Assembly: GCA_023132135.1 (NCBI GenBank)
Contig: JAGLYR010000235.1
Coordinates: 1 to 13,244 of the forward strand
Direction of reading: 5' to 3'
Source of the DNA: Candidatus Eiseniibacteriota bacterium
GTDB lineage: Bacteria > Arandabacterota > Arandabacteria > JAGLYR01
Length of the DNA: 13,244 nt
The position numbers and the translations under genes are program-made. Shown here in pieces: positions 1 to 13,244 of this stretch. The notes under the pieces are model-generated. The model made no database searches, was not told the origin of the DNA, and saw only the letters and a program-made list of their open reading frames with translations. The stretch's first letter is position 1. Every line of letters begins with the position of its first letter.

Positions 1-77
1 GGCCGTAGCCAGAATCCTTACCCTTTCGACCCGACACTTGGTCTCGGCCCTGAGCTGGTCAGATCATCGTCCCATTT

Positions 78-256
78 AGCCTGCGTTTCTCACCAGGTTT
101 CGTCGCGAGGGGCCGGGCCATGTGGCGAGAGGCGCCTTTGGACTGAGTCGCTCCCGAAGGCGTAGCCGTGGCTACGTTGAGGAAGCGACGAGGGAAAAGG
201 TTCCTCGCAGCCCATGGACCGGAGCCGTAGCAGAAAACTGGTGAGAAATGCAGGCT
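78..256. repeat. Large imperfect palindrome at the 3' end of the envelope operon
   Basis: The outer arms, 78-101 and the reverse complement of 233-256, match at 22 of 24 bases. A nested pair GTCGCT (147-152) and AGCGAC (184-189) and a central hairpin CGTAGCC-GT-GGCTACG (161-176) share the same centre near 168, so the whole block folds on itself. Partly matching segments (around 110-128 and 204-222) lie between. The right arm overlaps the TAG stop (255-257) of the barrel gene, so the minus-strand transcript would end in a long stem. It could act as a 3' stabiliser or terminator, or be a MITE/REP-like repeat; no T-run follows. Bases 1-77 show nothing recognisable. Confidence 0.7.
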
Positions 257-1574
257 AGAAGAAGTACCGCGCACGGAGCTCTATCTTCCAATCGTTCATC
301 TTGTCGCCGTATTCGGTGCCATTGCCTCCGAACAGAATATTGAGCCGGGACCGCAGCTCCAGGTTCTCGACACCCGTGTAGCCGACCTCGGGAATGAGAC
401 TGAACGAACCACCATCCAGATTCAGGATGGTGAACAGAGCGGGGGTCACGTAAAGCCATCCAAAGGGTTCTTTCTGGGATGCCTTCACGTAGAGGTAATT
501 CCGCATGAAATGGGGCGGTGGGTAACCGGAAAGGTCGGGGCGGGCAGCGATCAGTTGGGAGTCTTCGGCAGCGTATACAAAGTGGAAGAAATCTCCGGCT
601 TCCCTCTCGGTCTGTCCTTCCCCATTGTGGTAATACTCGATGATCCACGTGGTATTCGTGGGTGCAAGATAGCGGAGTCCCGCCAGAAAACTCAAGGCAT
701 CATGTTCGTCGGAAGTGGCGATTCCATCTGCGCCAACGACTCTTTTCTGAGAATCGGTTGCCAGCGCAGCTTCCCCGTGCACTTCGAAGTTGGCGGTGAT
801 GTTCCGGGAGACGGTAAGACCATACCGAGGGGTTCGGCTTCCCGCCAGCAAGGCCATCAGATCGATGTCGGTGTCGTGGAGCAGGAGGTAGAGCTTCCCG
901 GCCACATTGGCGTGATGTTTCTTGCCGAAATCAGGGTTGATATCGTCTGAAACCGGCAGGAGCACTGCGGTGAGGGCAACGGTTTTGAGCGACCCGGAGA
1001 AGCTTTTCACGATGTCCGCGAGCCCCACCCAGTAGCCTTCCAACGACAGATCGGGATCCGATGGATTCTTGTTCCGGCCGACGAAGTTGGTGGGGTTCCA
1101 GGCGTACCCTTTGCCCCACCGAAGAAGCGTTTTTCCAGCGGTGAAGTAGGCGTTGGAGCTGCCCTGCCAGGAGAGGTTGCCCTCGTACAGGAGGGAGCCG
1201 CCGTCCCATTGCTCCCCGTCGTAGCTCTCCCGCAGGGTGCCGAGGGCATACGCCGTGAACGATCCCGACTGGAAGGTGAGCCCTGTCTGGACCTCAACGC
1301 CGCTCTGCAGGCGGTAGACATCCTCCTCGTGTCCCAGGAAACCGATCCGGTAAAGCGCAGCGTCGCGGTCCAGCCGCGCGCCGGCAAGATACCCCTGCAG
1401 GTAACCGTCGAGAGCCCAGGGAGATTTTTCGAACTCCCCGGCATCGAAAGAGAACTCCTCGATTTCGGGAGAACCGTACATCTCCTGGGCGGAGACGGGC
1501 CGACATGCCAGGAGCAGAACAGTGATGCCTGTCGCGATGCCTGTCCCGATCTTTGCCTGCCGCCCGAGAGTCAC
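255..1574 (-). CDS. Predicted outer-membrane beta-barrel protein
   Basis: A 439-residue protein with an N-terminal hydrophobic signal (residues about 8-24) and a likely signal peptidase I site after VSA (29). The mature part is rich in alternating polar/hydrophobic strands and aromatic residues, and ends RARYFF, the C-terminal Phe typical of barrels recognised by the BAM machinery. The stretch RWGKGYAWNP (152-161) followed by an NPSDPDL segment resembles barrels found beside LolA-like and exporter genes, but I cannot name the family. The start is GTG, overlapping the upstream stop as GTGA, with a GGAGGAG Shine-Dalgarno 5 nt ahead, so it is probably translationally coupled. It is the last gene of the operon and the likely outer-membrane partner of the LolA-like carrier and ABC transporter. 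Cys24 sits in LLAC, a weak lipobox; a lipoprotein is possible but less likely for a barrel. Confidence 0.8.
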   Translation of the reverse strand: MTLGRQAKIGTGIATGITVLLLACRPVSAQEMYGSPEIEEFSFDAGEFEKSPWALDGYLQGYLAGARLDRDAALYRIGFLGHEEDVYRLQSGVEVQTGLTFQSGSFTAYALGTLRESYDGEQWDGGSLLYEGNLSWQGSSNAYFTAGKTLLRWGKGYAWNPTNFVGRNKNPSDPDLSLEGYWVGLADIVKSFSGSLKTVALTAVLLPVSDDINPDFGKKHHANVAGKLYLLLHDTDIDLMALLAGSRTPRYGLTVSRNITANFEVHGEAALATDSQKRVVGADGIATSDEHDALSFLAGLRYLAPTNTTWIIEYYHNGEGQTEREAGDFFHFVYAAEDSQLIAARPDLSGYPPPHFMRNYLYVKASQKEPFGWLYVTPALFTILNLDGGSFSLIPEVGYTGVENLELRSRLNILFGGNGTEYGDKMNDWKIELRARYFF

Positions 1575-2311
1575 CTCAACTCCTCCACCCGAGGCAGGAA
1601 GTTCAGCGTGAAGACCTCGTCACTGAATTCGCGGGCACGGATCTCGGCGAAGAGCATGACGGAACGGTATCCACGCTGCAGGGGACTGTCCGTTTCCAGG
1701 ACACTGGGCCGGACGAGTCCTCCGCCGAAGTCCTTGGTCTTGCTGTAGTGGAGAGTCTTGATGAGAATTCCCGTCGATGCGTAACACCCGATCTCTGTGG
1801 GGATGACGGTCTTCTTGTCGACCCGCATCACGAGGCGCTCGTAGGCCACCGATCCTGATTTCGCCCTGAGATTCAGTACATAGTGATCTCCGTCCACGCT
1901 GGACGAGTCGACGGAATACTCGCTCGAGTAATCAAGTCTCAAGATGTCGGAATTGTTGAACACTCCACCGACGATTGACTGCAGGCTGGTAATGCGAATG
2001 GGTTTGCCCACGTTGGGCAGGTAGAGCCACATGTTGTCCTCAAGACGGAGCGTGCTTCTCCCCTTCTCGCTGGCCGGTGAAAGGAAGAGAGCCACCATCC
2101 GGTCCTGACCCTTCTTGATCGTGTACAGCACGAATTCCTTCTTGCTGCCATCCGGCTTGATGTTGATGAGCTTGCGGTACATCTCGTAAGACTCGGGATT
2201 GAGGTTGCGGTCTACCTGGCGCAGAATCGCCTCCCCGTCGAGGGCGTGAGCCGTCGGAGTGATCCCGATTAGAGCCGCTGTGATCGTGATCGCCTTGAGA
2301 ATTCTTTTCAT
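1571..2311 (-). CDS. LolA-like outer membrane lipoprotein-sorting protein (periplasmic carrier)
   Basis: A 246-residue protein with a Sec signal peptide (MKRILK, hydrophobic core, cleavage after AHA at 23). The mature part fits the LolA-like 'outer membrane lipoprotein-sorting protein' family: an early helix (ILRQVDRNLNPESY), a strand series with KPDGSKKEFVLYTIKKG, the segment LEDNMWLYLPNVGKPIRI, and an SDILRLDYSSEYSV region. Family members have a half-barrel that carries acyl chains across the periplasm. The reading frame stays open upstream to 2560, but that stretch is antisense-like low-complexity Ser/Arg sequence overlapping the permease. ATG at 2311, with AAGGAG about 10 nt upstream and an immediate signal peptide, is the clear start. 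It lies 58 bp after the permease gene and overlaps the barrel gene by 4 bp. The cargo (lipoprotein or lipid) cannot be told from sequence. Confidence 0.85.
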   Translation of the reverse strand: MKRILKAITITAALIGITPTAHALDGEAILRQVDRNLNPESYEMYRKLINIKPDGSKKEFVLYTIKKGQDRMVALFLSPASEKGRSTLRLEDNMWLYLPNVGKPIRITSLQSIVGGVFNNSDILRLDYSSEYSVDSSSVDGDHYVLNLRAKSGSVAYERLVMRVDKKTVIPTEIGCYASTGILIKTLHYSKTKDFGGGLVRPSVLETDSPLQRGYRSVMLFAEIRAREFSDEVFTLNFLPRVEELR

Positions 2312-2369
2312 CTTCCCATTTCTCCTTGTCGCTTGACGGCTCGGCAGCCCCTTGTCCGGATCCGGCCCA

Positions 2370-3617
2370 TCACGCCTGCCGCATCGCCGTGACCGGCTCC
2401 ATTCGTGATGCCTTGTACGCCGGCTGCAGGCTGGCGATCGTCGATATGATGATGACGAGAAGAGAGACGACGACGATGTCCATCGGATCCAGGGTTGGAT
2501 ACAACAGGAGATCCTTCTGGCGGCCGAAGTCAAAAGTGAGGGGGATGGTTTGGAGGACAAAGATCGCGGCCAGAGAGAGCGCGGCGCCGACGGCAGACCC
2601 CAGGATGCCCAAGCTGAGTCCTTCGACCAGGAAGAGCGACAGGATCATCCCGGGCCGGGTCCCGATGGCGGCAATGGTACCGATCTCCTTGATCCGCTCG
2701 AAGACCGCCATGATCATGACGTTCATCACGCTGACCAGCACGATGGAAATGAGCATCAGTTTGATGAAGAAGGTCATCATATCGATCATTCTGGCTATAT
2801 TGTAAAAGGGCGAGAGCTTCTCCCAAGTGTGGATCTCGTATTTTGGATGTCCCTGTTTGTTCAATTCCCCCTCGAGACCTGCTGCCAGTCCTGCTCTTAC
2901 CCTCTTCAACCCACCAGCATTCTTAAGGCGGATGGCGTATTCGTTCGCCTCATTTTCCGTGATTCGGAGGATCTCCCGCGCATCCTCGATGTGGATGTAG
3001 CCGTCTCGCCCACCAGGTCCGGAGATTCCCTCGAGGATACCGCTGACGATGAACGTCTTTGCATTGACCGACCCATCCCTGTTTGTTGCTACCACCACCA
3101 CGGTATCTCCGAGTTTCACCTTCATTCCCTGGGCAAGCAGTTCCGGCACCAGGATTTCACCCGGTTTGAGCAGGACGGCCGAGGCTTCTCCCTGGAGAAT
3201 TCGTTTCGGCAGGAGCGGTGCGGCCAGGATCTCCCTGGCCGGATCGACTCCATTGAGGCGAACGTTGGTCGTCTCCTCGAAGTTACTGAACATCCCCCCG
3301 AACTTGATGCGCGGAGAGTAGGCCTCCACCTCGCCCAGTGCGTCCAGCGCAGCTTCGAGTGTCTGCATATCCGTGGGGCCCAGATTCAAATGGAGGGGGA
3401 GATTGTCGATGGAGGCCACATAACCGCGTTTGTGGACCTGCAGGTGGCCCAGCATGGAGTCCGTGATCTGGCCGATCATCATGGACTTAAAGGCGCCGGA
3501 TATGGAGACGAAGAGAAGCACGGCTACGACGCCGATCGTGATCAGCGAGGAAGTGAGTAGCGTGCGCCTCCTGTACCGGAGGAGATTCCGGAGGGCGATC
3601 TTCAGAATGTTACGCAT
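2370..3617 (-). CDS. ABC transporter permease, FtsX/LolC-LolE/MacB type
   Basis: A 415-residue inner-membrane protein with the classical layout of type VII (MacB/LolCDE) permeases. There is a basic N-terminus (MRNILKIALRNLLRYRRR), TM1 at about 21-42, a large extracytoplasmic domain, then three TMs in the C-terminal third. Typical family motifs are the cytoplasmic EIGTIAAIGTRPGMI loop after TM2 and the C-terminal PAYKASRMEPVTAMR. It would act as a dimer with the upstream ATPase, using ATP to move the periplasmic domain rather than to import a solute. The frame is open up to 3692, but ATG 3617 has AGGAGG 7 nt upstream and begins at the family's usual N-terminus. It overlaps the ATPase gene by 8 bp. 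No second permease (LolC plus LolE) is present, so a homodimer is inferred. No MacA-type adaptor is seen, which argues against a MacAB efflux pump. Confidence 0.92.
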   Translation of the reverse strand: MRNILKIALRNLLRYRRRTLLTSSLITIGVVAVLLFVSISGAFKSMMIGQITDSMLGHLQVHKRGYVASIDNLPLHLNLGPTDMQTLEAALDALGEVEAYSPRIKFGGMFSNFEETTNVRLNGVDPAREILAAPLLPKRILQGEASAVLLKPGEILVPELLAQGMKVKLGDTVVVVATNRDGSVNAKTFIVSGILEGISGPGGRDGYIHIEDAREILRITENEANEYAIRLKNAGGLKRVRAGLAAGLEGELNKQGHPKYEIHTWEKLSPFYNIARMIDMMTFFIKLMLISIVLVSVMNVMIMAVFERIKEIGTIAAIGTRPGMILSLFLVEGLSLGILGSAVGAALSLAAIFVLQTIPLTFDFGRQKDLLLYPTLDPMDIVVVSLLVIIISTIASLQPAYKASRMEPVTAMRQA

Positions 3618-4311
3618 GGCCCGTCCTCCTGTCTTCCCGACCAACGAGAAGGCCGTCTTCGAGGGTGTACACGATCTCCGCCTCGCCCACAATCTTGGGG
3701 TCGTGGGTGGAGAAGATGAAGGCTGTCTTCCTGTCGGCCTTCATGGACTTCATGAGGTTGATCACCATGAAGGCGGTGTCGTGGTCCAGATTGGCCGTCG
3801 GCTCGTCTGCGAGGACCAGTTTCGGGCTGCCCACCAGGGCCCTGGCGACGGCCACCCTCTGTTTCTGGCCACCGGAGATCTGGTTGGGGAATTTCTTGCT
3901 CTGATCGACCATCCCCACCGCCTCGAGGAGAGTTTCAACACGTTCGCGCCTCTCCCGTGCGCTGTAGCCTGCGACCACGAGCAGCGGGTACTCCACGTTT
4001 TCGAAGACAGTGAGAACCGGGATGAGGTTGAAATCCTGGAAGACGAAGCCGATGTTCTTCCCCCGGAACGTCGCTCCCTCTGCACGGCCCAGGGAGGCCA
4101 CGTCGGTACCGGCGACCGTGAGGTGTCCGGATGTGGGGCTGTCGAGACAGCCGATCAGGTTGAGCAGTGTCGTCTTCCCGCTCCCCGAAGGGCCTACGAA
4201 GGACACAAAACTCGCCGGCTCGATTTCGAAGTCCAGCCCCCTGATGGCCCTGACTTCGACTTCTCCGGCCTGATAGGTCTTGCTGATATCACTCGCGCGA
4301 ACGAGACTCAT
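3610..4311 (-). CDS. ABC transporter ATP-binding protein, LolD/MacB family
   Basis: A 233-residue ATPase with every core motif: Walker A GPSGSGKTT (40-48), Q-loop Gln92 in FQDFNLIPVLTV, signature ISGGQKQR (145-152), Walker B LVLADE (165-170) with the PTANLD D-loop, and the switch His203 in STHDP. The 'FNLIPVLTVFENVEYPL' Q-loop region is characteristic of the LolD/MacB/FtsE subgroup that pairs with mechanotransmission permeases. It is cytoplasmic and drives the adjoining permease. The start ATG has AGGAGA six bases upstream. It is the first gene of the operon, with a promoter about 75 bp upstream (4386-4413). Length is normal for LolD. I do not assign a gene symbol because LolD, MacB-like and lipid-exporter ATPases cannot be separated by sequence alone. 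Confidence 0.95.
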   Translation of the reverse strand: MSLVRASDISKTYQAGEVEVRAIRGLDFEIEPASFVSFVGPSGSGKTTLLNLIGCLDSPTSGHLTVAGTDVASLGRAEGATFRGKNIGFVFQDFNLIPVLTVFENVEYPLLVVAGYSARERRERVETLLEAVGMVDQSKKFPNQISGGQKQRVAVARALVGSPKLVLADEPTANLDHDTAFMVINLMKSMKADRKTAFIFSTHDPKIVGEAEIVYTLEDGLLVGREDRRTGHA

Positions 4312-4385: not shown

Positions 4386-4413
4386 ACTATCTTGTCCCAA
4401 GATGGCATGTCAA
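4386..4413 (-). promoter_or_regulatory. Sigma-70-type promoter of the envelope operon
   Basis: Read on the minus strand, a perfect -35 TTGACA (4413-4408) is followed after 16 bp by GATAGT (4391-4386), four of six matches to TATAAT. Transcription would start near 4379, leaving a leader of about 68 nt before the ATPase ATG at 4311. It faces away from the promoter of the beta-helix gene in the same 285-bp intergenic region. Confidence 0.55.
4389..4403. promoter_or_regulatory. Candidate operator palindrome inside the operon promoter
   Basis: ATCTTG-TCC-CAAGAT is a perfect 6-bp inverted repeat with a 3-bp centre. It fills most of the spacer between the -35 and -10 of the minus-strand promoter and touches the -10. 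This is where a dimeric repressor, or a MerR-type activator, would bind. No regulator gene is in the window, so the role is inferred from position only. Confidence 0.35.
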
Positions 4414-4596: not shown

Positions 4597-6453
4597 ATGA
4601 AATCGGTTGCGATTACTGTAATTACGGCGATTGTGGTACTCGCTGGCGTTCCGGCGTCTGCCACCACTTGGAATGTGCCGGGGGACGCGGCGACCATTGC
4701 AGGAGGACTCGCGCTGGCCTCGGCCGGCGACACGGTTCTGGTGGCCTGCGACACCTACTACGAGAGCGGCCTCGACGTGCGGTCGGGCGTGGTCTTGCGA
4801 AGTGCGACCGGCGACCCATCCTGCGTCACTATCGATGGCGCTGCCGGGCGGGGACCCGTGATCTACTTGTCGTGGTCCAATAACGCGACCAGCGTCGAGG
4901 GATTCACCATCACGGGAGGGTCGGCCTCCTACGGTGGGGGCATGAGCTGCTTCAATTCCTATGCTTCGGTTCGCGACTGCAATTTCAACGGCAACTCGGC
5001 CACGGTCCGCGGCGGCGGCGTATCCATAGACGCGGGCATGAGGTACTACAACAGCATGGATTTTGTCGACTGCAGCTTCAACGGTAACACGGCCTCCGAT
5101 GGCGGGGCACTATACCATGGCGGAGCCTGCTGCAACTACTACAACGGAGTGGATTTCGTCGACTGCACCTTCGACCAGAACACAGCCACAAACAATGGTG
5201 GTGCCGTGGTCGGCGATCACTGCACCCACGATTTCACTAACTGCACCTTCTCCGGCAATACGGCAGAGACGGGTCACGGCGGTGGTGTCCTTGCCCAGAA
5301 CACCTACTACGGCGCGTGGGATTTTACGGATTGTACGTTCTCGGGCAACTCGGCTGGAAACTTTGGCGGCGGCGTCTGCTTCGACTACCCGCAGTACTAC
5401 AGCACCTACGATTTCACAGGCTGCACGTTCTCCGGAAACTCCGCTGCCAAGGGCGGGGGATTCGGCATGATGGACGACACCGACTATCATGACTTCGATT
5501 TCACAGGCTGCACATTCTCCGGAAACACGGCAATCAGCTCGGGCGGTGGAGTGTATACGTACTACTCCGGATTTGATTTCCTGGACTGCACGTTCGACGC
5601 CAACTCGGCCCCGGACGGCGGCGGGGCGTTCGCCGATGGCGGTGCCGTCACCTATTTCACCTCGACGGATTTCATTGGCAACACGGCCAGTTCCGGTGGG
5701 GGCGCCGCGTATTCCTCTGGAGCTTACACTCACTTCTACAACTCCACCCTCTACGGAAACTCGGCGAGCATGGGCGCCGGGTTGTACTCCGACTATTCTT
5801 ATGACTACCTCGATCACTCCATCATTGCGTTCAGTCCATCGGGGGAAGCCGTCGCCTGTTCCGACCCGGGTTACTCTTCTCCCAGCGCATGGTGCACCGA
5901 CATCTACGGCAACGCGGGCGGCGACTGGGTGGGGTGTATTGCCAGCCAATACCCGGGCCAAGGCAATATGTCGGAAGACCCCATGTTCTGCTGCGGCGAG
6001 CGGGGGAATCTGCGCATCGACTACTTCTCCCCATGCCAGGCGTGCGATGAATCCCCGTACGCTCTGATCGGAAACCATGGGACTGGTTGCCGGGGCAACC
6101 GGTGTGAGCGATGGGGCGCAAGAGATGATCTGGCTTCGGTTCTCGAGGAACAGCTGGGCGGCGGGACGGAATTCCGGATTCTCTCGCCTGCGCCGAACCC
6201 GTTCAATCCATCCACGGAGATTGCCTACTCGATCCCTGCGGGTTCCGAGCCATCACGGGTTACCATGAAGGTGTACGATGCGACCGGTCGAGCTGTCACG
6301 ACCCTGATTGATGAAGATCGGGCTGGCGGAATGTACAGCATCACATGGAACGGGAGGGATCACAACGGGGCCGAAGTCGCCAGCGGGGTGTATTTCTACC
6401 GGACCACGTGGAACGGAAAGAGCCAGACCCAACGTATGGTCCTGCTGAAGTGA
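4597..6453 (+). CDS. Secreted right-handed beta-helix protein with C-terminal sorting domain
   Basis: A 618-residue exported protein. Residues 1-22 are a Sec signal peptide (cleavage ASA/TTW). The body is a beta-helix: about ten rungs with the repeated pattern C-T-F-S-G-N-[ST]-A ... GGG-[VA] (for example CTFSGNTAETGHGGG), as in polymorphic outer-membrane (Pmp/Chlamydia-type) repeats. It then has a Cys-rich segment (DYFSPCQACDESP), and residues 525-618 (SPAPNPFNPSTEIAYSIP ... GVYFYR ... QRMVLLK) form a FlgD-like/por-secretion-type C-terminal domain. In relatives that domain directs secretion or attachment at the cell surface. The frame is open back to 3430, but that part is antisense to the ABC genes; ATG 4597 opens directly onto the signal peptide and lies below a good promoter. 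No catalytic residues are evident, so it could be an adhesin or structural surface protein as easily as a polysaccharide-acting enzyme. Confidence 0.9.
   Translation: MKSVAITVITAIVVLAGVPASATTWNVPGDAATIAGGLALASAGDTVLVACDTYYESGLDVRSGVVLRSATGDPSCVTIDGAAGRGPVIYLSWSNNATSVEGFTITGGSASYGGGMSCFNSYASVRDCNFNGNSATVRGGGVSIDAGMRYYNSMDFVDCSFNGNTASDGGALYHGGACCNYYNGVDFVDCTFDQNTATNNGGAVVGDHCTHDFTNCTFSGNTAETGHGGGVLAQNTYYGAWDFTDCTFSGNSAGNFGGGVCFDYPQYYSTYDFTGCTFSGNSAAKGGGFGMMDDTDYHDFDFTGCTFSGNTAISSGGGVYTYYSGFDFLDCTFDANSAPDGGGAFADGGAVTYFTSTDFIGNTASSGGGAAYSSGAYTHFYNSTLYGNSASMGAGLYSDYSYDYLDHSIIAFSPSGEAVACSDPGYSSPSAWCTDIYGNAGGDWVGCIASQYPGQGNMSEDPMFCCGERGNLRIDYFSPCQACDESPYALIGNHGTGCRGNRCERWGARDDLASVLEEQLGGGTEFRILSPAPNPFNPSTEIAYSIPAGSEPSRVTMKVYDATGRAVTTLIDEDRAGGMYSITWNGRDHNGAEVASGVYFYRTTWNGKSQTQRMVLLK
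5059..5610 (+). repeat. In-frame tandem DNA repeats encoding beta-helix rungs
   Basis: Units beginning GATTT(C/T) start at 5059, 5152, 5230, 5320, 5410, 5497 and 5575, so spacings are 93, 78, 90, 90, 87 and 78 bp, all multiples of three. The first 30 bases of the units at 5410 and 5497 differ at one base only, which points to recent duplication or gene conversion inside the gene. Confidence 0.75.
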
Positions 6454-6798: not shown

Positions 6799-7965
6799 AT
6801 GGACAAAAGTGAAACCGCTCAGAAAATAGACTCTCTGCCACGGTGTAAGGTGAAGACGCTCATCTTCGGTATGACCCTCTCCGTACTAGGCGTACTAGCT
6901 GCCGTCCTCGCCACAGAGATCGGTCTCAGACTTCTTAACCCACTCGAAAACATCCCGCAACGGGAGTTTAGCCCCTATCTCGGCTGGCGGGGGAGACCGA
7001 ATCTTACTTGCGTGCTTGCCGAGAAGCATTTCCGCATCCGTATCTCGCAGAATTCGTATGGCTTTCGCGATGCAGAAAGAAGCTTTGATCGACCGGCAGG
7101 GAGCCGACGCGTCTTGTGCTTGGGTGACTCCTTCACGTGGGGGTGGGGGGTAGAGCAGAACGACATATATACCCGGGTGCTCGAGAATGCTCTGAAGGAT
7201 CGCGCAGAGCCGTGGGAGGTCGTAAACGCAGGAGTGGGAGGGTATAGCACAGACCATCTTTTGCTGTACCTACGGAGACAAGGCCGCCGCATCTCTCCGA
7301 ATGTGGTAATCTACCAGGTGGCCAAAAATGATGTTACCGCCGGGAATACGCTACATATCTCAGAGGGTATTTACCAGAAACCCTTTTTCAGGCTCTTGGA
7401 GGACGGCTGCCTGTCTCTTGAAAACTGTCCTGTCCCTCCCCTCTTATTCTGGAACCGTATGAAATATGCTGTGTCCCGGCATAGTCGGCTAGCCTATTTC
7501 CTGAAGCACCGCATCCATGCCGCATGGTTGTGGCGTCGATCAAAATATGTGGCGCAAAAGGTTCCCACAAACACGGAGGAGTCGTCAGGCGCCATCAGCT
7601 ATTCCTTTCGCCTCTTTGCTGCCCTCGTGTCTGAGCTGCAAAGTGAATGTGACTTGCTTGAAGCGAACATGGTGCTCCTCATCGATTTCCCGTTCTCGGA
7701 GGAAGAGCTAGACTACTGGAGAGATAGATGTGCCGCTGTCAACACTCATTTCCTAGTGCCGTATTTTGAACGCAGAGAACGTGAAACCAACATATCCGCA
7801 AGAATCCCAAATGACGGCCATTGGAGCAAGAGCGGCCATCAGTGGGTGGCCGAGTATGTCGCGTCACGTGTGATAACTGATGTACACAGACAGACGCCAA
7901 CGGTGGCTGGTGGTCCTGGTGGCGGTGCCTTTCATCTGGAATCTGATCTAGAGACGACGAGATAG
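6799..7965 (+). CDS. Membrane-anchored SGNH/GDSL-family hydrolase or acyltransferase (copy 1)
   Basis: A 388-residue protein with one N-terminal membrane segment (about 20-41) and an extracytoplasmic SGNH domain. The signature blocks are visible: LCLGDSFTWG with nucleophile Ser111, the oxyanion glycine in NAGVGG (143-148), KND with Asn177, and the C-terminal NDGHWSKSGH with Asp339/His341. Such enzymes make or break acyl esters on lipids or glycans; AlgX/PatB-like members transfer acetyl groups to exopolysaccharide. The substrate is not shown. The tail after about residue 365 (GGPGGG) is probably disordered. The start ATG 6799 has only a weak ribosome site; an in-frame GTG at 6850 would remove 17 residues but keep the TM. 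It is paralogous to the convergent gene 8039-9133, with 73 bp between them. Confidence 0.85.
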   Translation: MDKSETAQKIDSLPRCKVKTLIFGMTLSVLGVLAAVLATEIGLRLLNPLENIPQREFSPYLGWRGRPNLTCVLAEKHFRIRISQNSYGFRDAERSFDRPAGSRRVLCLGDSFTWGWGVEQNDIYTRVLENALKDRAEPWEVVNAGVGGYSTDHLLLYLRRQGRRISPNVVIYQVAKNDVTAGNTLHISEGIYQKPFFRLLEDGCLSLENCPVPPLLFWNRMKYAVSRHSRLAYFLKHRIHAAWLWRRSKYVAQKVPTNTEESSGAISYSFRLFAALVSELQSECDLLEANMVLLIDFPFSEEELDYWRDRCAAVNTHFLVPYFERRERETNISARIPNDGHWSKSGHQWVAEYVASRVITDVHRQTPTVAGGPGGGAFHLESDLETTR

Positions 7966-7979
7966 TGCCGAGAGTCCAT

Positions 7980-8003
7980 GGGACAATGGGACAGAGGGAC
8001 AGA
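7980..8003. repeat. Three tandem GGGACANN octamers between the convergent genes
   Basis: GGGACAAT, GGGACAGA and GGGACAGA lie head to tail directly after the first SGNH gene, and the third starts repeat copy B. GGGACAG strings of this kind are common next to REP-associated transposase remnants, which fits the neighbouring repeat. Confidence 0.5.
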
Positions 8004-8087
8004 ACCCTCATTAGTAGAACCAGTTACCCACCTTGGACTTACGACCTTTCGTCTTTGGTCTGAGTGATCGGCCCAGCATCTTCTCCA
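7996..8087 (-). repeat. Repeat copy B, forming the 3' end of the second SGNH gene
   Basis: Aligns ungapped with 6517-6608 (81 of 92 identical). On the minus strand a 25-codon frame (8088-8011) reads through LGRSLRPKTKGRKSK to a TAA, like the tail of a Y1/REP-associated transposase. A second frame supplies GEDAGPITQTKDERS and the TAA stop of the SGNH gene. Identity with copy A stops abruptly at 8087, inside the coding sequence. Confidence 0.65.
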
Positions 8088-9133
8088 TCCGCTCTCAAAC
8101 CTACAACGAAGTCTTTGAGAATACGGCCGGTCAATCGGTGCCCTGCTGGATTCCAGTGGCCGTCCAGTGGGAAGTAGTTCTCGATTCCCGATTGCCCCTC
8201 CTCCAGGAAACGCGCAGACAGATCGACGTATGGAATCGCAGTTGCTTTGACGAACTCGATCAAAGAGGCCGTCTGTCTTGGCGGATCGCTGCCGTCGGCA
8301 TGGGGAACCACCATCACGGCGAATACAATGTTCTTCGCCCTGCAAGTTTCGCAGAGGGCCGTCAACAGATGTCGTGTGAGATTCTCGGCTCTCGGCATGG
8401 CAGTCTCAGCGCGGACGGGATCTCTGGTTCTCACCTCTCGGGAATATATGTAGTTGGCAATCCTTCGCCTCATGAAGGTGAAGAGGTGGAACCGGCTGGA
8501 CAGGATACGATAGCCGGGCAGGCGAAGCATCGCTTCACGGAGTTTGACCGGGTCGGGCAAGCGCGCGTCCTGTTTGACCAACCGTCCATCCTGAAGTCGA
8601 TAGAGCCCCACCCCGGCATTGTCGAAGAAGTCATTCGCGCCGCAGAAGCAGAGTAGCACAAGATCCGGATCGTACTTGTAGCCTTCAGCATTGAAATAGG
8701 CCAGCTGGTGCGCCGTGCCCGTGCGGTCCACTCCCGCGTTGATCACCTCCCAACACCCGTCACTGCCGGTTTCCTGGTTCAAGAGGTTCTCCAGTACCTT
8801 TGGGAAGACCTCGTGTTGCTCTACGCCGTGACCAAAGGTAAAGGAGTCTCCCAGGCAGAGAATCCGCCGGGTGTTCTCTGGTTTCTCGTAGGGATACTCC
8901 CTGTCGCGAAGGCCCTTGGAGTTAATGGCAGTGCTGGTCTTGAACTCGGGGCTGTCAATGCTGCCCTTTCCGCCCGGGATGTTTCGATGTCCCAGCTCTC
9001 GGTCCCAGGTGTTGATGTGCACGCTGAAATGCTGCTGAGGTCGGAAAAGTCTGAATCCGATTTCCAGGATTCCTACGGTAAATACAATCGCCAGCAAGAC
9101 CAGCAGTAACCGTGAAGCGATCTTTGTCAACAT
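8039..9133 (-). CDS. Membrane-anchored SGNH/GDSL-family hydrolase or acyltransferase (copy 2)
   Basis: A 364-residue protein with an N-terminal membrane anchor (about 5-27) and the SGNH blocks ILCLGDSFTFG (Ser97), INAGVD (131-136), GANDFFD (Asn167) and PLDGHWNPAGH (Asp324/His326). The shared stretches GVEQ, VLENL, WEV(I/V)NAG and DGHW show it is a paralog of the gene at 6799. It is probably periplasmic or outer-surface facing and acts on acyl esters of lipid or glycan. ATG 9133 lies 9 nt from GGAGG; an upstream in-frame GTG (9139) is only 3 nt from it, so ATG is preferred. The last 15-16 residues lie inside repeat copy B, and their DNA is nearly identical to non-coding DNA at 6560-6608, so the tail was probably acquired from a mobile-element remnant. 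The catalytic domain is complete before it. Confidence 0.87.
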   Translation of the reverse strand: MLTKIASRLLLVLLAIVFTVGILEIGFRLFRPQQHFSVHINTWDRELGHRNIPGGKGSIDSPEFKTSTAINSKGLRDREYPYEKPENTRRILCLGDSFTFGHGVEQHEVFPKVLENLLNQETGSDGCWEVINAGVDRTGTAHQLAYFNAEGYKYDPDLVLLCFCGANDFFDNAGVGLYRLQDGRLVKQDARLPDPVKLREAMLRLPGYRILSSRFHLFTFMRRRIANYIYSREVRTRDPVRAETAMPRAENLTRHLLTALCETCRAKNIVFAVMVVPHADGSDPPRQTASLIEFVKATAIPYVDLSARFLEEGQSGIENYFPLDGHWNPAGHRLTGRILKDFVVGLRADGEDAGPITQTKDERS

Positions 9134-9178
9134 GACCACTGCCCTCCGGCTTGAATCGGGGCTCGCCGTTTGCCGTCC

Positions 9179-9212
9179 ATCCCGCTCCGGCGTTCTCCCA
9201 TTGGAGCGGGAT
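9179..9212. promoter_or_regulatory. Hairpin in the 5' leader of the second SGNH gene
   Basis: ATCCCGCTCC (9179-9188) and GGAGCGGGAT (9203-9212) form a perfect 10-bp stem with a 14-nt loop. It lies between the predicted start (about 9224) and ATG 9133 on the minus strand. No T-run follows on either strand, so a simple terminator is unlikely; it may be an operator or an RNA control element. Confidence 0.5.
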
Positions 9213-9230
9213 ATTCACAAGTTCCAAATT

Positions 9231-9259
9231 ATGATACGATGATCAATTTGAAAAATCAA
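9231..9259 (-). promoter_or_regulatory. Sigma-70-type promoter of the second SGNH gene
   Basis: On the minus strand, TTGATT (9259-9254), a 17-bp spacer and TATCAT (9236-9231), in an AT-rich patch that stands out from the surrounding GC-rich DNA. The leader to ATG 9133 would be about 90 nt and includes the 9179-9212 hairpin. Confidence 0.55.
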
Positions 9260-9460
9260 GAGGCGATTGCTTCAGGCTAGGCGGTGTTTCCATTCGCTCT
9301 CAAACCTGATTTTCGTGTACCTGCACATCGATATGTTGTAGAATGCAACTACCAGCCGGACAGAATGCTTCTCTATCTGCCTGCGGCGGCGGTCTGGCTG
9401 GAACCTCATTGGCCCTCCCATGTAGATCAGCGGAGGCGATCCTTGTTAGAAGGGCTGCGC

Positions 9461-10528
9461 ATGTCCGACCGGATGTATGGACAGTTCATCCGCTGGCTGA
9501 CGGTGGTGTTCCTGTACGTGTCTGTGGCCAGTGTTGTGCTGGTCGTATCCCTCCTAAGGCCCGGGGTGCATGTTGGCAAGGGCACCTTCGTCGACATGAT
9601 CCATGGAGAGGCGCACAGGCCCTACGTCTACAGAACCCTTTTGCCAAGTCTTGTGAGAGCTGTTGGGGATGCAAGTGAACCAATACTTGCTGCCCGCCAG
9701 GTGGATAGGAACGATACCGTGATCGCCGGACTTGCGCATCGAATACTGTGGCGTACAAAGGCACCGAAGTCTGCCTTCGAGCACAAGTACGAATATGGAG
9801 TTTGTTTCGCCATACAGTTCCTGTGCATCCTCGGGTTTGGCGTCTTGCTCAAGCTCCTGAGCGACGCCGTCTACCCTGATTTCCCCGGGTTCGTTTCAAT
9901 TCTTGGGCCCGTCATAGCCCTTTCCGTCATACCCCCCATGTTCTTTCGGTATGGCCAATACATATACGATCCCATGACCTTGTTCCTGTTCGCCCTGTGT
10001 GTTTACTTGATCCTCGTGAGACGTCACGTGGCGTATGTCGCTGTGTTCACGATTGCTGTCTTCAACAAGGAGACAGCGATTCTGCTCATTCCGGTATTCG
10101 CTCTTCGAGAAAGAGGGCTGATTCCATGGAGACGCCTGGTGGCGCTGACCCTGCTTCAGGCTCTGCTATACGTGTGTGTCAAGTTATGGCTAGCGCATCT
10201 GTATCGTGAGAACCCAGGTTCATTCGTCGAGTTTCACCTGCTGGACCACAACGTGAAGCTTGTGACGAATCCCGAGTTCTATGTCAGGAATCTCATTGTC
10301 CTGGTTCCGATTGTGACGCTGATTACACACCGCTGGAAGGAGAAACCTGTCTTTCTCCGTCACAGCCTGGTAGCTTGCTCCATTCCCCTTGTTACTTTGG
10401 CGACGTTTCTGGGCTTTGTTGATGAGCTGAGAGGATACTACGAGTTGTACCCGTTCGTGTATCTTCTGGCACTTCCCACACTTGTGGAGGTTTTGGGTAT
10501 CGGTGTCGTGGAGAAGGAGAGTAGGTAG
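9461..10528 (+). CDS. Polytopic membrane protein, possible GT-C-like glycosyltransferase (paralog 1)
   Basis: A 355-residue protein with roughly eight hydrophobic spans (first at about 13-32, last near 332-348). Landmarks are RPYVYRTLLP (53-62) in the first extracytoplasmic loop, FNKETAILL (201-209), KPVFLR (295-300) and VDELRGYYELYP (320-331). These recur in the next gene and in uncharacterised bacterial membrane proteins that often neighbour glycosyltransferases; I do not recognise a named family. The frame is open from 9284, but MSDRMYGQF at 9461, with AGAAGGG upstream, precedes TM1 directly and is the better start. It lies 27 bp ahead of its paralog and is clearly co-transcribed. A role in lipid-linked sugar transfer or surface-glycan assembly is inferred from topology and neighbours only. 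Confidence 0.75.
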   Translation: MSDRMYGQFIRWLTVVFLYVSVASVVLVVSLLRPGVHVGKGTFVDMIHGEAHRPYVYRTLLPSLVRAVGDASEPILAARQVDRNDTVIAGLAHRILWRTKAPKSAFEHKYEYGVCFAIQFLCILGFGVLLKLLSDAVYPDFPGFVSILGPVIALSVIPPMFFRYGQYIYDPMTLFLFALCVYLILVRRHVAYVAVFTIAVFNKETAILLIPVFALRERGLIPWRRLVALTLLQALLYVCVKLWLAHLYRENPGSFVEFHLLDHNVKLVTNPEFYVRNLIVLVPIVTLITHRWKEKPVFLRHSLVACSIPLVTLATFLGFVDELRGYYELYPFVYLLALPTLVEVLGIGVVEKESR

Positions 10529-10555
10529 CCAGGTACTCTAGGGAGTCGCAAGGTC

Positions 10556-11680
10556 ATGGGTGGTGCTCAGGACAATAGTGCGAAGCCTTGGAAACCTAAA
10601 CCGGTTCGTCTGAAAGATGATGAAGTGACAAGCGTCGATCAAGGTTGCCCTAGCTGCAATCCCTCGAAGGACGCAGGGCCGGACTCGCGCAACGGTATTC
10701 TCAGATTCTCCGGTCCCTGCATCCTCGCTCTGTACCTCCTCCTATCCGTCCTGTTCGCCAATTTCTACTTCCAGACCACCATTGAATGGACCCCCGACGA
10801 CTTCAGCGCGTACACCTATTCCTCTGAACGCTATCACTGGAATCCCGTGTTCCGATTCCGTGTACTCGTGCCTCTTCTCGCGAGGGGCGTTGATTGCGTT
10901 CTCGGAGTCAATCTTCAATGGATGTATCAAGCTCTCGCGGGGCTCTGTGTTTTCGGATCGCTGATCGCGTATCGCAGGTATCTGTCGAATTTCCTGCGCG
11001 CGGACTTCTCGAGCATCCTCTCCGTCGCGATCGTCTATCCCATGCTCTGGAACTTCTGTCTTCTGAATAAGATCTACTTCCCTTTTGACCTGCCGGGGTT
11101 GCTGTTCTTCGTGATGGGTTGTCACTTCATTTACCGCAGGAATTGGGGAGCATACTACCCCACACTTGCCCTTGCGACTCTGAACCGAGAAACCTCCTGT
11201 TTCCTCATGTTTATCTTCCTTGTCTGCCTGTATAGGAAGATGGCAGCCAGGAGACTAGTCTGGCACTTGCTTGCGCAAACGGCGCTGTGGATAAGCCTGC
11301 GGTGCTTAGTGTTTCTCATTGTAGGTGACTATTCCGAAGTGCTCCCCAAACTCACGATCGCTTTCAACGCGAGAGTCATACTTGATATGTTGACCCTTCG
11401 CGGTAACGGTCTCAAAGACTGGGTTAAGCTGGGACTTGCCTTCGGGGGCATCTGGTGGGCGCTCCCCCGGGTCATACGCGGCCAGCCGGTTTTCCTCAAG
11501 CGGTGCCTGCTGGTGGTGGTTCCGTTTGTCATAGCAGTGGGCCTCAAGGGCGTTGTTGACGAGGTGAGGGTCTACGCAGAGCTCATTCCCATTGTGCTTA
11601 CACCCGTCGTCGTCGCGGTCGCTGCGGAGTTGGGTGGGACCAGATCTGGCCTGAGTGCAGATGATAGAGGCCGGGAGTAA
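10556..11680 (+). CDS. Polytopic membrane protein, possible GT-C-like glycosyltransferase (paralog 2)
   Basis: A 374-residue protein with a hydrophilic N-terminal stretch of about 50 residues (containing CPSC, 31-34) and then about eight membrane spans. Its landmarks line up with the preceding protein: FRFRVLVPLLAR (99-110), TLNRETSCFL (208-217), QPVFLK (310-315) and VVDEVRVYAELIP (333-345). The two genes are therefore a tandem duplication that has diverged widely. The conserved charged residues (Arg in the first loop, N-[KR]-E-T, D-E-[LV]-R ... E-L-x-P) are candidates for a shared active or binding site. ATG 10556 has GGGAG about 10 nt upstream; if the hydrophilic extension is false, an in-frame GTG near 10625 is an alternative. 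The C-terminal tail after about residue 358 is polar. It is probably in one transcript with the gene before it and perhaps the one after. Confidence 0.78.
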   Translation: MGGAQDNSAKPWKPKPVRLKDDEVTSVDQGCPSCNPSKDAGPDSRNGILRFSGPCILALYLLLSVLFANFYFQTTIEWTPDDFSAYTYSSERYHWNPVFRFRVLVPLLARGVDCVLGVNLQWMYQALAGLCVFGSLIAYRRYLSNFLRADFSSILSVAIVYPMLWNFCLLNKIYFPFDLPGLLFFVMGCHFIYRRNWGAYYPTLALATLNRETSCFLMFIFLVCLYRKMAARRLVWHLLAQTALWISLRCLVFLIVGDYSEVLPKLTIAFNARVILDMLTLRGNGLKDWVKLGLAFGGIWWALPRVIRGQPVFLKRCLLVVVPFVIAVGLKGVVDEVRVYAELIPIVLTPVVVAVAAELGGTRSGLSADDRGRE

Positions 11681-11833
11681 ATGCCTCCGCCGATATCACA
11701 TCACTATGCATGATTGTCGAAAACGAAATAGCTTGCGGTCGGTCTACATAAGTGATAGAGTTCTGTCAGAGAGGATCAATGACGGTGCAGTACTCCGTTC
11801 TGCATGGTGCACATCGCAGACTGGACGCTACCG

Positions 11834-13244
11834 ATGCCGAGCCCTGAGCTGAAAGCCATCGAGCGAACGCCGCCGTTTTCCAATGGGAGCATTGCGAAGG
11901 CAACTAGCGGCCAATCAGCTGATAGATCTCCCTGTGAGAGCTATGCCCGGATCGCACTGATGATGATACTCGTCGGAGTGGCGGTCCGAGTGCTGATGAT
12001 GGTCCTCGCAAAAGGGACTCTGATCGACGATGCCTATATCTCGCTCCGATATGCCCGGAATCTCTGCGTCGGCCGAGGGATGGTTTACAACGTCGGCGAA
12101 CATGTGCTGGGCGCGCCTCCCCTTTATGTAGTCGTCCTTGGATTCCTGTGGCAAGTCGAGAAGCTTGTCTTCGGCAGCAGCGGGGAGCACATCGGCTATT
12201 TCGTCTCGGGTCTGAACGTGCTGCTGACGGGATGGGCCGGCTGGCTCCTCTTCAGATTGGTGCGACCGACGCCTCGCTATCTTTCGCTCCTCCCTCTGAT
12301 GATCTTCTGCTTGTATCTTCCGTTCACCGATAACGGCACAACCGGGATGGAGACTCCCCTGTTCATCCTCATGCTGCTCTTATCGTTGTACCTGCTCGAG
12401 GGACGAAGGGACTGGATCGCCTCGGTTGTGCTGGGTTGTGCGGTTCTAGTCCGGGCCGAGGGGGTGCTTTGGATTGCTTGCGTACTCCTTTCGCGGCGAT
12501 TGCGGGGCAAAAGGTTGAGCCTTGGGCTGATTGTACCCTTGGGCATGATCGGCGCGGGCTGGGCCGTGTTCGGCACCCTGTACTATGGGTCTCCGATTCC
12601 CCAGAACGCGCTGGCCAAAAGCGGGTGGATCGTAGGTATGTGGGGGAGCGAAGGGCTGTTCGGGCACGGGTGGAAGATTCTGCGGGCGTTCACACTGGTG
12701 CCAAGCGGTGGGGCGGCCGGAGCAAGCTTGTTGGAGGTTGTCTTGGTCTCGGGAGGCACTCTGGTTCTCTCCTCCTTGTTCATGGTCGGGATGGTGAGGC
12801 TCTTTCGCCGGCGAAATCGAGACCTGGTGTGGGGATTTTTCTTCGTCTTCAGTGTCCTGTTCTTCATCCTGGGTCGCGGGGCAACGTGGCCCAGCTGGTA
12901 CGCCATACCTCCGGGGCTTTCCTTTGCAATCGTCGTGTCGCACGGCCTCTCTGTCCTGTTAGAAAGCGACAATCTGAGGTCGTGGAGAAGGTGGAACAGC
13001 GGAAGACTCGGCCCGGTTTTGGGTATCGGTCTCTTTATCTTGCTGCTCGTCGGATCTTTAGTCGTCTGGCAGCACAAGAGACTGCCCTACTATGAGATCC
13101 TCAGGCATGGCTACGGAGCTACCGGGGAATATCTGGCCTCAGTAGCGGAGGACCAACGCCTCTTCGTGAACGAGATCGGCTACATCGGGTTCCTGGCGGA
13201 CCGGTATATCTATGACGCTGGCGGTATGGTGACAAAGGACATTC
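11834..13244 (+). CDS. GT-C superfamily membrane glycosyltransferase, partial (runs off the window)
   Basis: The reading frame stays open from ATG 11834 for 470 codons to the window edge; the 3' end is missing. After TM1 (about 40-60) comes IDDAYISLRYARNLCVGRGMV (start 64), with the acidic pair Asp65-Asp66 expected at the GT-C active site, and then VYNVGEHVLGAPPLYV. Further family marks are NGTTGMETPLF (167-177), VRAEG (206-210), SPIPQNALAKSG, and a late soluble-loop segment EIGYIGFLADRYIYDAGG. These match the family of polyprenyl-phosphate-sugar-dependent glycosyltransferases related to AftB-like and PMT/ArnT-type enzymes, which add sugars on the outer face of the inner membrane. The start is uncertain: an in-frame ATG at 11804 also lacks a clear ribosome site. 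It lies about 150 bp after the paralog pair, on the same strand. Confidence 0.85.
   Translation, partial: MPSPELKAIERTPPFSNGSIAKATSGQSADRSPCESYARIALMMILVGVAVRVLMMVLAKGTLIDDAYISLRYARNLCVGRGMVYNVGEHVLGAPPLYVVVLGFLWQVEKLVFGSSGEHIGYFVSGLNVLLTGWAGWLLFRLVRPTPRYLSLLPLMIFCLYLPFTDNGTTGMETPLFILMLLLSLYLLEGRRDWIASVVLGCAVLVRAEGVLWIACVLLSRRLRGKRLSLGLIVPLGMIGAGWAVFGTLYYGSPIPQNALAKSGWIVGMWGSEGLFGHGWKILRAFTLVPSGGAAGASLLEVVLVSGGTLVLSSLFMVGMVRLFRRRNRDLVWGFFFVFSVLFFILGRGATWPSWYAIPPGLSFAIVVSHGLSVLLESDNLRSWRRWNSGRLGPVLGIGLFILLLVGSLVVWQHKRLPYYEILRHGYGATGEYLASVAEDQRLFVNEIGYIGFLADRYIYDAGGMVTKDI

Follow-up and report, generated by a model that had tools for sequence, protein, structure and literature searches.

The window analysed here is the whole 13,244-nucleotide contig JAGLYR010000235.1 of a Candidatus Eiseniibacteriota bacterium, and it carries a four-gene operon for an ATP-binding cassette (ABC) ATPase, a permease, a LolA-fold carrier and an outer-membrane beta-barrel (Table 1). 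The question raised by this locus is what such a set of proteins moves across the cell envelope, and whether it belongs to the lipoprotein (Lol) pathway or to another kind of system. The operon is probably an ATP-powered counterpart of exporters in which a resistance-nodulation-division (RND) pump of the MMPL family works with a PF17131 carrier and a DUF1302 barrel, and it would move a lipid or hydrophobe outward.

The four genes are one unit, and their neighbourhood is conserved far beyond chance. All lie on the minus strand, in the order ATPase-permease-carrier-barrel. An earlier note on this DNA had described a four-part operon with overlaps of 8 bp (ATPase/permease) and 4 bp (carrier/barrel); its coordinates and both overlaps are confirmed, and a gap of 58 bp separates the permease and carrier genes. 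The GTG start of the barrel gene overlaps the TGA stop of the carrier gene, whose raw open reading frame begins further upstream, at 2560. The source genome (3.4 Mb, 345 contigs, 96% complete; the window is the entire contig C152 of G000) was set in a sample of 386 genomes from across bacteria, broad but thin, with eight genomes of the window's phylum. Across this sample a permease profile gives 13 matches above 450 bits, the next best reaching 172. The carrier gene follows the permease gene in all 13 genomes and the barrel gene comes next wherever the contig continues: ten operons are complete, one has all four genes but is cut at both ends, and two contigs end within the carrier gene. Divergent complete versions occur in two additional genomes, G317 and G153, which brings the number of operon genomes to 15. 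Of the 13 genomes, nine are labelled only as the same domain and so lie outside the phylum of the window, each from a different family; within that phylum the barrel is present in four of the eight genomes. The four genes keep their order in G004 and G005; G006 also has the full set, but contig ends cut its ATPase and barrel genes. The neighbourhood that the earlier note proposed to look for in relatives is kept, in the same order, in every relative with a long enough contig.

Pairwise identities of the four operon proteins co-vary (r 0.87-0.95), and 6 of 12 loci retain the overlap of 4 bp between the carrier and barrel genes. Flanking genes were compared and differ at every locus; there is no conserved fifth gene among them and no clue to the cargo common across loci. 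Because the order recurs, the identities correlate and the flanking genes vary, the four genes form a unit, and as this unit has no further conserved parts it could be moved into a laboratory strain for testing. Viral contigs searched with the barrel and plasmids searched with the permease gave no matches. The barrel profile has one strong match away from an operon, at G272:C29, where a lone paralogue of the operon barrel (L079, 3150-4637) stands without a carrier or motor of this kind; G272 also has the operon. A scan of genome contigs with the carrier alone gives a single match, L022 (G154:C366), in a metagenome-assembled genome labelled Rokuibacteriota. The operon of G154 is 79-83% identical to the window's operon, against 51% for LysS; to judge from these identities the contig may be misbinned or the operon transferred, and it was not counted as an independent occurrence. 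LysS, used as a control for cross-phylum transfer, gives 46-56% in full-length matches, which shows only that the operon proteins are more conserved than LysS.

It is very unlikely that the operon is the host's main Lol system under another name. The window's genome has a separate lysS-lolC-lolD locus on contig C217, the separate canonical Lol set that the earlier note had named as a test, and its LolC scores 345 bits with the curated lolCE model (TIGR02212), against 120.6 for the operon permease. That permease stays under the model's cut-off of 362.45 (range 96-131 in the 13-genome clade), and the best NCBIfam model for the ATPase, LolD (TIGR02211), gives 221.3 bits, under its cut-off of 307.75. 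A separate permease of at least 254 bits, that is, a bona fide LolC/E, is present in 13 of the 15 operon genomes; the core operon itself occurs in only 13 of the 386 genomes. What speaks for identity with the main Lol system is the distribution of LolA: PF03548 is over threshold in 7 of the 15 operon genomes, and the 8 others include the window's genome, where weak LolA-superfamily proteins at C44 and C339, together with the lysS-lolC-lolD locus, count on the opposite side. G317 also favours it. While G267 has only weaker separate lolCE-like permeases, G317 (contig C67, locus L075; 1.3 Mb, 89% complete) has the operon permease as the sole lolCE-like permease found, and in that genome the operon may be the Lol system. 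Neither the operon nor its conserved neighbours include a LolB. Four-gene conservation and a separate LolC/LolD in the same genome bear out the earlier view of a dedicated extra line.

The motor is a type VII ABC unit, consisting of a MacB_PCD + FtsX permease with a partner ATPase. In the maximum-likelihood tree the operon permeases fall on one branch (support 83/61 for all 15 and 100/99 for the core 13), distinct from LolC/E and MacB. The permease is thus a member of its own type VII clade next to LolC/E, and is not LolC, LolE or MacB; despite the "LolE-like" label given earlier, the protein is no LolE orthologue. Being encoded by a single gene, it presumably acts as a homodimer. In Escherichia coli LolC the Hook, residues 167-179, is essential for LolA recruitment (PMC10865981). 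When this site is aligned, a long hairpin is seen in LolC and none in MacB; the hairpin of the core operon permeases is shorter and carries a conserved N-x-D/E-G-S-V-N-[AG] motif across the 13-genome clade. LolE likewise has a loop at the Hook site, so hairpin length alone proves nothing; the motif may nevertheless mark a docking element suited to a different carrier.

The carrier belongs to PF17131 (LolA_like), with 134.9 bits against a gathering cut-off of 30 and no PF03548 match. A signal peptide is present, with a mature start placed by eye near LDGEAI, but there is no lipobox; the carrier is therefore expected to be a soluble protein, as LolA is, rather than an anchored one such as LolB. 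Its AlphaFold2 monomer model, built with 13 homologues, has a predicted local distance difference test (pLDDT) score of 90. The nearest solved fold is NE2245 of Nitrosomonas europaea (3buu; Z 29.3, root-mean-square deviation 2.0 over 219 residues), followed by a putative lipoprotein-sorting protein of Vibrio (Z 24.6), LolA3 of Porphyromonas gingivalis (9tp6; 24.6) and a DUF1329 protein (23.9). LolA and LolB proper give Z scores of 14 and lower (LolA structures 11-14, P. aeruginosa LolA 14.0). The earlier "LolA-like" reading therefore holds for the fold, but the protein is of the PF17131/NE2245 type and not LolA proper.

The AlphaFold2 monomer model of the barrel has 18 strands and a pLDDT of 82. 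Its nearest folds are OprD/Occ channels (Z up to 22.8, for OccK9), MOMP, AlgE (21.7), chitoporins (21.5) and Wzi (19.3), with LamB also listed; Omp85, TolC and LptD barrels were not among the fold-search matches, although a family that is not listed is not thereby excluded. The C-terminal YFF is a typical outer-membrane signal, and an aromatic end is kept in relatives. The N-terminus holds a lipobox-like LLAC, but its Cys is not conserved, and the barrel was rejected as a lipoprotein. The barrel falls into no Pfam or NCBIfam family, and Pfam and PDB sequence searches with the barrel or its profile returned nothing. A clear answer comes from profile-profile comparison only: one DUF1302 sequence compared with the barrel profile reaches 17%, while hhalign of the barrel profile against the RND-linked DUF1302 set gives 98.7% (E 3.8e-16, 330 columns). 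Controls stay low, with 0.6% for the reversed profile, at most 0.8% for ten block shuffles and at most 1.5% for E. coli OmpC, OmpF, LamB, FadL and ChiP. On this profile evidence the barrel is a divergent homologue of the DUF1302 barrels encoded after PF17131 carriers in RND/MMPL cassettes. The earlier note had seen a barrel standing where LolB or TolC would be; an outer-membrane barrel is indeed present, but as a relative of a family known from RND cassettes and not as an unexplained substitute.

The link to these cassettes is visible in G007, a genome of the same class, where a PF17131 protein lies beside an MMPL-like pump and is followed by a DUF1302 barrel, with no ABC unit of the operon's kind. 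Twenty further PF17131 loci were picked stepwise down the list of strong matches, and are thus a non-random set: 15 have an RND pump beside the carrier, 11 a DUF1302-like barrel, and two an ABC unit that has a pair of permeases, the others being left unassigned. Of 11 barrels compared, ten match PF06980; all three pumps tested match MMPL. The carrier aligns with RND-linked carriers by hhalign at 99.9% (E 3.5e-32). In the barrel tree the ABC set and the RND set form the two sides of one branch with support 100, and in the carrier tree the RND-linked carriers occupy one branch, while the two divergent ABC versions stand apart from the core 11. Since carriers and barrels are homologous and the motor is another, shuttle and barrel are shared and the motor differs. 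A separate PF17131 ABC arrangement was also seen at L129, L131 and L080, with one ATPase, two tandem permeases and a carrier; neither kind of barrel was detected adjoining it.

Function is suggested by AmeABCD of Castellaniella defragrans, an RND (HAE3/MMPL)-LolA superfamily-DUF1302 cassette that exports monoterpenes; when it is deleted, the cells tolerate monoterpenes less well and accumulate more Nile Red (PMC6394551). Type VII ABC systems, for their part, pull hydrophobic molecules and lipoproteins out of the inner membrane (PMC12646458). Putting the AmeABCD phenotype and type VII extraction together yields a reading of lipid extraction, shuttle and barrel. Gene content, cross-phylum conservation, the separate Lol system, the folds and the homology of carrier and barrel to RND cassettes come directly from computation; for direction, docking, hand-off and cargo we infer the following. 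The type VII ABC unit would use ATP to extract a lipid-like molecule from the inner membrane and pass it to the soluble PF17131 shuttle docked at the periplasmic domain of the permease, probably via the N-x-D-G-S-V-N hairpin. The shuttle would then cross the periplasm and unload at the DUF1302-related porin-like barrel, delivering the molecule either to the outer membrane or to the exterior. Several points weigh against an ATP-powered hydrophobe exporter. The barrel does not rise above the PF06980 (DUF1302) cut-off, a porin-like barrel could equally serve uptake, and no cargo or biosynthesis gene lies near the operon. In AmeABCD, moreover, AmeB is a larger DUF1329 protein and AmeC has no counterpart in the operon.

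The uptake-like fold of the barrel leads to a second reading, in which barrel and carrier import or recycle lipid in a Mla-like retrograde manner, the ABC unit driving its removal from the outer to the inner membrane. Resemblance to the uptake porins OprD/Occ, LamB and chitoporin favours this, but the exporter AlgE comes close to OprD in fold score, those type VII ABC transporters that have been characterised work outward or in the periplasm (PMC12646458), and the relatives of the carrier and barrel work with an efflux-type RND pump (PMC6394551); lipid import is accordingly improbable.

A second dedicated lipoprotein line deserves more weight, though it too is unlikely. Here the permease would extract a subset of lipoproteins, the carrier would shuttle them and the barrel would place them on the surface. 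The closest characterised relatives of the motor are LolC/E/F, the carrier fold is that of LolA, the Aat system, which handles a lipoprotein, pairs a LolCDE-like ABC unit with an outer-membrane channel (PMC7943197), and a similar Borrelia cluster has been proposed for lipoproteins (PMC13078400). However, no lipoprotein gene is conserved with the operon, the hairpin at the LolC Hook site is different and shorter, in the fold search the barrel looks porin-like rather than Omp85/LptD-like, and PF17131 carriers mostly adjoin RND pumps. In addition, P. gingivalis LolA3, among the closest fold neighbours of the carrier after NE2245, binds LolB only weakly (PMC13103446). Of the two cargoes named in the earlier note, a small lipid or hydrophobe is more likely than a lipoprotein; the latter finds no specific support, since no lipoprotein gene accompanies the operon and the tested relative exports small hydrophobes (PMC6394551).

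Table 1. Operon genes and adjoining features, in positions of the window
Feature	Position	Strand	Details
ABC ATPase (LolD/MacB-type nucleotide-binding subunit), the motor	3610..4311	-	233 aa; ABC_tran 120 bits
Type VII permease (MacB_PCD + FtsX)	2370..3617	-	415 aa, ATG; MacB_PCD 59 + FtsX 54 bits
Secreted soluble LolA-fold carrier	1571..2311	-	246 aa, ATG; PF17131 135 bits
Outer-membrane beta-barrel, 18 strands, porin-like	255..1574	-	439 aa, GTG; AlphaFold2 + hhalign
Possible sigma-70-type promoter upstream of ATPase, TTGACA-16-GATAGT	4386..4413	-	weak; number found near chance level
Dispersed inverted-repeat element, directly at 3' end of barrel gene	77..257	.	terminal TAG = barrel stop codon

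The surroundings of the operon in the window are of several kinds. The imperfect inverted-repeat element is dispersed in the same genome at gene 3' ends, with further copies at L002 (6033-6214) and L005 (from 6301). Its termini read TAGCC[TC]GC[AG]TTTCTCACCAG, one L002 end carrying a further mismatch, and in L005, as in the window, the element's terminal TAG serves the preceding gene as its stop codon. Divergent to the operon, the gene at 4600-6453 (+) encodes a protein that is probably secreted and probably a beta-helix surface protein, with seven matches to the Chlamydia-PMP repeat and a FlgD_ig-like C-terminal tail. At 6799-7965 (+) and 8039-9139 (-) lie two SGNH/GDSL-like hydrolases, each probably anchored in the membrane by its N-terminus, the second being weakly AlgX-like too. 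Three polytopic membrane proteins at 9284-13244 adjoin them, and the last matches GT87. Hydrolases and polytopic proteins together (6799-13244) possibly make up an exopolysaccharide or glycan locus.

The logic of an ABC unit with a LolA-like shuttle and a barrel has already been proposed; the four-gene version and its relation to RND cassettes are apparently undescribed, no description having been found in the literature searched, which covered few subscription journals. PF17131 and DUF1302 are widespread envelope families without established function. Tentatively, and somewhat short of being probable, the PF17131 carrier and DUF1302-type barrel can be seen as a motor-independent export chassis, coupled to an RND pump or to a type VII ABC unit, in which a diffusing shuttle unloads directly at a porin-like barrel. 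As the same shuttle-barrel pair occurs with two unrelated motors, the pair itself probably performs the step from periplasm to outside. If true, this adds another envelope route to continuous tubes (MacAB-TolC), bridges (Lpt) and the LolA-LolB relay, and it bears on how a LolA-fold shuttle delivers hydrophobic cargo into or through a barrel of the outer membrane.

Among known systems, the nearest relative of the operon is the RND cassette with a PF17131 carrier, found for example in G007, L114, L119 and L127. AmeABCD shares with the operon a barrel and a LolA-fold periplasmic protein, each from the same family or superfamily, a tight motor-carrier-barrel set, and the lack of a membrane fusion protein (MFP) or TolC; its motor is a proton-driven RND pump, whereas the operon has a type VII ABC motor (ABC + MacB_PCD/FtsX) and no RND/MMPL pump. 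NE2245 and P. gingivalis LolA3 are among the closest solved structures to the carrier. The Lol pathway (LolCDE/LolDF-LolA-LolB) likewise joins an ABC extractor to a LolA-fold shuttle, but the operon differs in a permease of a separate clade with another Hook-site hairpin, a PF17131 carrier, the lack of LolB and the addition of a barrel. The Aat system, which joins a LolCDE-like motor to TolC (PMC7943197), and MacAB-TolC resemble the operon in having a type VII ABC motor with an outer-membrane exit; both use an MFP adaptor and a TolC-like channel, where the operon uses a shuttle and a porin-like barrel. MacAB-TolC further has a fused ATPase-permease and the MacA adaptor, in contrast to the operon's separate ATPase and permease genes and no adaptor gene. 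The Borrelia BBJ23-BBJ29 cluster, proposed in 2026, has seven genes that include an ABC unit, a LolA-like shuttle and an Omp85 barrel (PMC13078400). Like the operon, it brings a MacB/LolE-like homodimeric ABC unit, a LolA-like carrier and an outer-membrane barrel together in one cluster; it differs in its Omp85-type barrel and in two tetratricopeptide repeat proteins and BBJ29, where the operon has a predicted 18-strand porin-like DUF1302 relative and four genes only.

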